43,480 bases of DNA from an uncultured SAR86 cluster bacterium (GTDB lineage Bacteria; Pseudomonadota; Gammaproteobacteria; Magnimaribacterales; Magnimaribacteraceae). A program made the position numbers and the translations under genes. The notes below the pieces were generated by a model. It was given only the letters and a program-made list of their open reading frames with translations. It had not been told where the DNA came from and ran no database searches. The stretch lies in assembly GCA_902628375.1 (NCBI GenBank), contig CACOMS010000010.1, positions 1 through 43,480 of the forward strand, written 5' to 3'. This document shows positions 32,523 through 34,527 of the stretch, piece after piece (position 1 is the first letter of the stretch; each line of letters opens with the position of its first letter).

Positions 32523-32572
32523 TTGCCTTGCATATGCATCTAAAGAAAAATAGAATTTGTCTTTTAATACAA

Positions 32573-32593
32573 GTGACCTGTCGTAGGGGCCAC
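32573..32593 (+). promoter_or_regulatory. Candidate thrS translational operator mimicking a tRNA-Thr anticodon arm
   Basis: The RNA folds as GUG/CAC, an A-C mismatch, then CC/GG and a U-G pair (32573-32579 with 32587-32593) around a 7-base loop G-U-C-G-U-A-G (32580-32586). In tRNA numbering the loop holds U33, anticodon C34-G35-U36 (threonine) and A37. It ends 8 bases before the thrS ATG, and its 3' strand holds the only Shine-Dalgarno-like AGGGG (32585-32589). E. coli ThrRS represses its own mRNA by binding an anticodon-like hairpin of this kind. The function here is inferred. Confidence 0.5.
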
Positions 32594-32601
32594 CACTGAC
32601 T

Positions 32602-34527
32602 ATGCCTAAAATTACTCTTCCAGACAATTCAGTAAGAAAATTTGACAAACCTATATCTGTTAATGAATTAGCAGAAGAAATAGGAGCAGGTTTAGCTAAA
32701 GCAACAGTAGCAGGAAAAATAGATGGTATAAGAGTAGATGCTTCTGAATTGATATTAGAAGATAGTAAAGTAGAGATCTTAACAGCAGATAGTGAAGAAG
32801 GTCTTGAAGTAGTTCGACATTCTTGTGCTCACCTCTTAGCGCATGCACTAAAACAAATATATCCAGATATCAAATTAGCAATCGGTCCAACTATAAGCGA
32901 CGGGTTTTACTATGACGTTCTGCTAGATCATAAGATTAATGAAAAAGATCTAGAAAAGATTGAAAAAAGGATGAAGAAATTAGCAGAAGAAAATTATGAA
33001 GTTGTTAGGGAGGTTGTTACTAAAGCTAAAGCAACTAAAACTTTCAAAGATAGGAAAGAGGACTACAAATTAGACATTATTAAAGAAATTCCTAAAGATG
33101 AAATTATTGCTCTTTATCACCACAAAGAATACATAGATATGTGCAGAGGGCCTCATGTAACAAATACTAAGCACTTGAGGGCTTTCAAATTGACTAAGGT
33201 AGCAGGTGCTTATTGGAGAGGAGATTCAAAAAATGAGATGCTACAAAGAATTTATGGCACTGCTTGGAAGGATAAAAAAGATTTAGAAACTCATCTAAAT
33301 AACTTAGAAGAAGCGGAGAAAAGAGACCATAGGAAATTAGGAAGACAATTGGATCTTTTTCACTTTCAAGATGAGGCACCAGGAATGGTTTTTTGGCACC
33401 CAAAAGGGTGGTCCATTTATAGAGTTTTAGAAGATTATATTAGGGCTAAGCAGCAGGAAGCTGGCTACAAAGAGATAAACACTCCGGAAGTCGTAGATAG
33501 GAAGCTATGGGAGAAATCTGGTCATTGGGATAAATACAGAGAAAATATGTTTATTACAGAAATTGATGATGAACACGCAAATGAAAAAAGAACCAATGCT
33601 TTGAAACCTATGAATTGCCCTTGTCATGTGCAAGTTTACAATCAAGGTTTAAAGTCTTACAGAGATTTACCTATTCGTTTAGCAGAATTCGGTTCTTGCC
33701 ATAGATACGAAGCTTCTGGAACCTTGCATGGTTTAATGCGAGTAAGAGGTTTCACTCAAGATGACGGACATATTTTTTGTACTGAAGAACAAATTGAAGC
33801 AGAAACTGGAAAATTCATAGAAGTACTATCATCTGTTTATAAAGATTTAGGCTTTGATAAATTTGAAATTAAACTTTCAACAAGGCCCGAAGTTAGAGTA
33901 GGTTCGGACAAAATTTGGGACAAAGCGGAGTCTGCATTAAAAAAAGCAATTAACAACTTAGATTTACCTTATGAAGTTGCAGAGGGAGATGGAGCATTTT
34001 ATGGACCCAAATTGGATTTTGTTTTAACGGATGCTTTACAAAGAGAATGGCAATGCGGAACCTTTCAGGCAGATTTTAATGTTCCGGATAGATTAGATGC
34101 AAAGTTTATTGGAGAAGATGGCAACAAGCATATACCTGTTATGATTCATAGAGCTATTTTGGGATCTTTTGAAAGATTTATAGGTATTTTAATAGAACAC
34201 CATTCAGGTTCTTTACCTTTATGGCTAAGTCCCACACAGGCTATTATTCTTAATATTACTGATAAACAAGCTAAATTTGCCCAAAAAATAGAGAAATCTT
34301 TAAGAAAAGATGGATTTAGGGTCGAAAGTGACTTGAGGAATGAGAAGATCACTTATAAAATTCGCGACCACTCTATGCAAAGAGTACCTTATTTGCTCAT
34401 AGTGGGAGATAAGGAAATGGAAAACAATACTGTTTCAGTTAGAGCAAGAGGTTCACAAGACCTCGGCGAGATGCCATTGGATGAATTTATTCAAAGAGCT
34501 TCTAAAGAAATAGTAACTAAGAATTAA
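32602..34527 (+). CDS. thrS: Threonyl-tRNA synthetase
   Basis: 641 aa (E. coli 642). Domains: TGS (1-62), the second N-terminal editing domain with [16 protein letters not shown] and [10 protein letters not shown] (about 75-225), class II catalytic core (about 245-535) and anticodon-binding domain (about 540-641). The zinc ligands are the cysteine in [11 protein letters not shown] and the histidines in [16 protein letters not shown] and [15 protein letters not shown]. It charges tRNA-Thr. It begins the translation cluster. A hairpin resembling the tRNA-Thr anticodon arm directly precedes the ATG, suggesting autoregulation. Confidence 0.96.

Follow-up and report, generated by a model that had tools for sequence, protein, structure and literature searches.

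A small hairpin that directly precedes thrS in an uncultured SAR86 cluster bacterium is very probably a translational operator through which threonyl-tRNA synthetase (ThrRS) represses its own synthesis: a one-arm form of the E. coli thrS operator, whose domain 2 is its homolog. We base this reading on sequence comparison. The hairpin lies in a 43,480-nucleotide stretch of DNA (the window) from a genome that is 67% complete and belongs to a one-member genus of a family labelled f1 within its order. Synthetase feedback control by tRNA mimicry is a textbook case, for which nearly all work known to us concerns E. coli. A search of the open literature gave no earlier survey of the element beyond that species.

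That ThrRS represses thrS via an anticodon-like arm, the premise of a first-pass annotation of this DNA, is established in E. coli (PMC9976931, PMC7373986, PMC3858243). There, thrS is repressed through an operator whose domain 2 mimics tRNA-Thr (PMC9976931, PMC7373986). Operator-bound ThrRS blocks the 30S subunit through its N-terminal domain (PMC7373986), and the ribosome binding site (RBS) is bipartite with an unstructured Shine-Dalgarno (SD) sequence (PMC3858243). The S. cerevisiae AspRS and HisRS also bind an anticodon-like hairpin in their own mRNA (PMC6542539, PMC7373986). The principle of autoregulation is the same in these systems, but they are eukaryotic, involve other enzymes and sites and show no homology to the element described here.

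A threonine anticodon-like arm before thrS

Positions 32573-32593 read GTGACCT GTCGTAG GGGCCAC, which as RNA can form a hairpin (GUGACCU-GUCGUAG-GGGCCAC). Six of the seven stem pairs form, the single A.C mismatch being pair 28-42, and the 7-nt loop carries U33, C34-G35-U36 and A37. GGGCCAC is followed by CACTGACT and then by the thrS ATG at 32602, 8 nt past the end of the hairpin. The small hairpin with a threonine anticodon loop reported by the first-pass annotation is therefore real. The same annotation described AGGGG as the only SD-like stretch, which is correct, and as sited in the 3' arm, which is not quite so: two of its bases, A37 and G38, belong to the loop and the other three are the first of the arm. 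The G at position 32 of the loop is unusual and counts against the ThrRS-operator reading.

Folding energy, which had been suggested as a check, gives the hairpin no support. Its energy of -4.3 kcal/mol corresponds to a z-score of +0.25, 115 of 200 shuffled sequences fold equally well, and the minimum free energy structure of the 118-nt leader region does not contain it. As folding energy is uninformative, comparative tests were used in its place. The hairpin is rare by composition and, by comparison with relatives, far beyond chance; among 12 hairpins of equal quality with 7-nt loops on both strands of the window, U33-N-G-U-A37 is unique to this site.

The E. coli K-12 thrS leader reads GUGAUCU-UUCGUGU-GGGUCAC-CACUG and aligns without gaps to GUGACCU-GUCGUAG-GGGCCAC-CACUG in the window, the two arms being identical at most positions. 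Both precede thrS, and both combine a 7-bp, 7-nt arm, a GUG...CAC stem and a threonine anticodon loop with a downstream CACUG. In sequence as well as in position, the window arm and E. coli operator domain 2 are homologous; the assignment to domain 2 was made because the anticodon-arm form, the CGU loop and the place before the SD match published descriptions (PMC9976931, PMC7373986).

The block before thrS recurs across Gammaproteobacteria, in 58 non-SAR86 regions mostly from different families, and the element is widespread instead of being peculiar to an AT-rich lineage. A covariance model (R2) trained on 51 non-SAR86 sequences scores 32569-32599 at 40.4 bits (E 1.4e-10), which makes it the genome's single strong match; the next one reaches 10.3 bits. 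This SAR86-free model also finds other SAR86 loci, including, only weakly, those of a sister family, f3. With a SAR86-inclusive model, exactly one strong site was obtained in each of the 22 f1 genomes whose thrS 5' end is readable, and it always lies no more than a few nucleotides from the thrS start; the f1 genomes without a strong match are those where the protein search gave no thrS 5' end. Relatives of the window thrS at 70-76% identity come nearly all from SAR86 cluster genomes.

The element matches no Rfam family, and the same holds when the E. coli leader itself is scanned; the only match in the Rfam scans was a tRNA. In Firmicutes, thrS is controlled by a T-box riboswitch, which responds to the charging of tRNA-Thr and binds the tRNA via a codon. 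This also places thrS under the control of tRNA-Thr, but the codon-based binding differs, and the T-box covariance model gave no match at the site.

Covariation of the stem and constraint on the loop

Across an alignment of 64 distinct sequences, pairing is kept in 92% of cells and four of the seven pairs have changed on both sides, with 25 compensatory cells against 4.7 in shuffles. When SAR86 is left out, 93% of cells pair, four pairs have changed on both sides and 25 compensatory cells are counted against 5.9 in shuffles. Slid controls are far lower (0-14 compensatory cells). The loop was examined using a position matrix that ignored the loop and was seeded only with the flanking sequence of E. 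coli: all 68 genuine sites found by this loop-blind search (17 in f1, 51 elsewhere) carry N-G-U at positions 34-36. Two extra matches, in f2/f4, are outside the 68; they belong to the matrix matches in L053/L056/L057, which lie about 150 nt upstream in unrelated sequence and were discarded as false.

All four bases occur at position 34, whereas G35 and U36, which in bacteria serve as identity bases for ThrRS (PMC9976931), never change. Within f1, G35-U36 is found in all 17 distinct sequences though N34 changes, and the loop triplet is AGU in 15 of them. The alignment of relatives called for by the first-pass annotation thus bears out a stem that covaries through compensatory changes, and a loop in which G35-U36 is invariant; its expectation of a fixed CGU holds for the last two bases and fails for C34, only N-G-U being constant. 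The tRNA-Thr genes found in the incomplete window genome have the anticodons UGU and GGU, and none has AGU. Since the AGU of f1 loops is absent from these genes, the loop would copy what ThrRS reads, not one particular tRNA.

Pair 28-42 has been lost in f1, where it is paired in 2 of 17 sequences versus 88 of 91 elsewhere, and we count this against the operator reading. Selection for a 28-42 mismatch in f1 was tested and is unsupported (P 0.28). Downstream of the arm, the single-stranded CACUG is near-invariant in Gammaproteobacteria and lost in f3; its UG could pair with a CA that is conserved on the other side of the arm.

The ThrRS of the window aligns over its full length to 1qf6 and 6vu9, with the N-terminal domains kept. 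Residues N575, K577, E600 and R609, which we take to be those expected for anticodon binding, are present in it and invariant.

Leader, promoter and ribosome binding site

Features of the thrS upstream region are listed in Table 1. Transcription is predicted to start near 32563, which would give a leader of about 39 nt. The TTGCAT-N17 spacing of the candidate promoter is also present in sister-genus loci (L100-L102), and 18 of 19 f1 regions have a -10-like box at a distance of 11-18 nt from the arm on its upstream side, compared to 1.4 in shuffles. A strict sigma-70 scan returned no promoter upstream of the window thrS. The predicted transcription start leaves no space for a second arm in the leader; in a scan which also misses E. 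coli's own domain 4, no second N-G-U arm was found within 110 nt upstream.

Table 1. Coordinates of sequence features at the window thrS gene
Feature	Position	Strand	Remarks
Candidate -35, TTGCAT	32528..32533	+	17 nt before the -10; from conservation
Candidate -10, TAGAAT	32551..32556	+	From sequence and a family-wide -10-like box
5' arm of anticodon-arm mimic, GUGACCU	32573..32579	+	From sequence and comparison
Anticodon-like 7-nt loop, GUCGUAG (U33, C34 G35 U36, A37)	32580..32586	+	
SD-like AGGGG	32585..32589	+	Only one present; across the junction of loop and 3' arm; 12 nt from AUG
3' arm of mimic, GGGCCAC	32587..32593	+	From sequence and comparison
Conserved single-stranded tail, CACUGA	32594..32599	+	E. 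coli shares CACUG
thrS, threonyl-tRNA synthetase	32602..34527	+	641 aa, full length, N-terminal domains present

No SD is present in the 8-nt gap between hairpin and AUG in any of the 21 f1 members; SD-like stretches occur at the usual place before several other genes of the window. The distance between AGGGG and AUG is longer than ideal, which again counts against the ThrRS-operator reading.

The E. coli leader is well over 100 nt long and has a second arm (domain 4, making up a symmetrical operator), a separate SD (AAGGA) and 21 nt between arm and AUG. In contrast, the SAR86 leader is predicted to be about 39 nt, with one arm, an 8-nt gap, SD-like bases in the arm and no separate single-stranded SD, a domain 1 feature of the full E. 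coli architecture. Because this separate SD is absent, we class the whole leader as a new variant: the arm belongs to the domain-2 element and the principle is known, while the SAR86 leader as a whole is new in detail. The reduced, single-hairpin form put forward in the first-pass annotation is backed by two features of SAR86, the short leader that is predicted and the lack of a separate SD.

Possible leader reduction among SAR86 families

The gap between arm and start codon is 8 nt in all 21 f1 members, compared with a median of 17.5 nt in other Gammaproteobacteria, where an SD lies in this gap in 88% of cases. In f3, the gap is 3-5 nt in nearly all members and contains no SD. Median arm energies are -5.1 kcal/mol in f1 and -3.4 in f3, versus -7.8 in the others. 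Furthermore, f3 has a -10-like box 6-11 nt before the arm, well above shuffles, which predicts a leader of about 25-30 nt with the arm starting close to the transcription start.

The arm is absent before thrS in SAR86 families f2 and f4. In f2, many thrS genes have a TATAAT 6-9 nt before the ATG, suggesting a leaderless thrS mRNA; in f4, thrS overlaps cysS. Some f4 start codons had seemed odd, and on the DNA these were read as an in-frame ATG overlapping the cysS end and are ordinary.

We lean slightly towards the view that the SAR86 thrS leader ranks among the smallest tRNA-mimic repressor sites in nature, consisting of hardly more than a single anticodon arm that encloses the ribosome site, making ThrRS and 30S binding strictly exclusive, and that leaders have shrunk stepwise across the order, from about 39 nt in the window to about 25-30 nt in f3 and to no arm in f2 and f4, where thrS is apparently leaderless or fused to cysS and the HxxxH motif of ThrRS is also lost. 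Genome streamlining in an abundant ocean lineage would then have compressed an operator until a single arm, merged with the ribosome site, was left. This bears on the minimum RNA needed for ThrRS repression and on ribosome-site masking as an alternative to the N-domain clash of E. coli. The core arm itself is widespread and conserved in Gammaproteobacteria, and a covariance model is now available to find it.

The arm-less SAR86 families also differ in the N-terminal domain of ThrRS, in which RHT[LV][TA]AQVLA, with one inserted residue, replaces RHSCAHL. These families have also lost the second His of HxxxH, the editing motif, which the arm-bearing ones keep (the loss was read in L023-L051, L053, L056-L058, L060, L063 and L069).

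Proposed mechanism and alternative explanations

We infer the following mode of control. When ThrRS is in excess of tRNA-Thr, free enzyme would bind the hairpin through its anticodon-binding domain, reading G35-U36, and the bound hairpin would stay folded. With the putative ribosome site (AGGGG and an AUG 8 nt past the stem) in or against the hairpin, binding would block 30S loading directly: as the SD-like bases lie within the arm, a bound and stabilized arm would mask them. Uncharged tRNA-Thr would compete ThrRS off the hairpin, and the freed, weak hairpin (about -4 kcal/mol) would open and allow thrS translation. Repression in E. coli uses two arms, and a single weak arm might bind ThrRS poorly, which counts against this reading. 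In E. coli, a change of the loop from CGU to CAU is reported to transfer control to MetRS.

We may also hypothesize that the hairpin tunes ribosome access without any protein, as a standby site or thermometer, and that SAR86 has inherited its likeness to an anticodon arm but no longer makes use of it. A weak hairpin holding the SD-like stretch, with pair 28-42 lost in f1, would fit such a role. However, a plain RBS hairpin needs no threonine anticodon, and G35-U36 is kept in 17 of 17 f1 sequences while N34 varies; f3, too, retains the loop while stem length, flank and gap change. We thus consider this explanation unlikely.

More improbable still is that the arm is a tRNA-gene relic or is recognized by some other protein specific for anticodon loops, for instance the t6A37 enzymes, whose substrates are U36-A37 loops. 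U33, U36 and A37 are common to ANN-reading tRNAs, and tRNA genes do occur upstream of thrS in many Gammaproteobacteria (for example, L210). Yet t6A enzymes would not require the invariant G35, and A37 is not itself invariant, since E. coli and much of Rhodobacterales have G37; the tRNAs upstream of thrS are tRNA-Val(GAC) by their anticodon and not tRNA-Thr, and a tRNA search found no tRNA at the site. Finally, the arms form an imperfect palindrome near a promoter and could be imagined to work in DNA as a transcription-factor operator. We give this the least credit. Symmetry at the DNA level is broken by G.U, the most frequent pair at 28-42, and by U.G at 31-39; moreover, the conserved loop is asymmetric, and the E. 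coli homolog works in mRNA (PMC3858243).

Other thrS upstream regions

Rhodobacterales-type Alphaproteobacteria (L287, L288, L317-L344, L073 and L080) have a threonine anticodon arm in 31 of 32 thrS upstream regions, 46-61 nt before the match start; in the lone exception, L321, the loop is kept with one mismatch. The arm is mostly GGCGU-[UC][UC][CU]GU[AG]G-GCGCC, with a stem sequence unlike that of the gammaproteobacterial arm, and is rare in a sample of other Alphaproteobacteria. It is possibly a separate thrS operator.

Tandem threonine anticodon arms were also observed before thrS, two in L147, L134 and L226 (and, by eye, in L149) and three in L136. We read these as a naturally occurring counterpart of the symmetrical operator with two arms. 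In many Gammaproteobacteria (L152, L200, L213, L223, L243 and others), a tRNA with anticodon GAC (Val) lies directly before thrS, within about 120 nt, and several of the species with this arrangement lack the arm.
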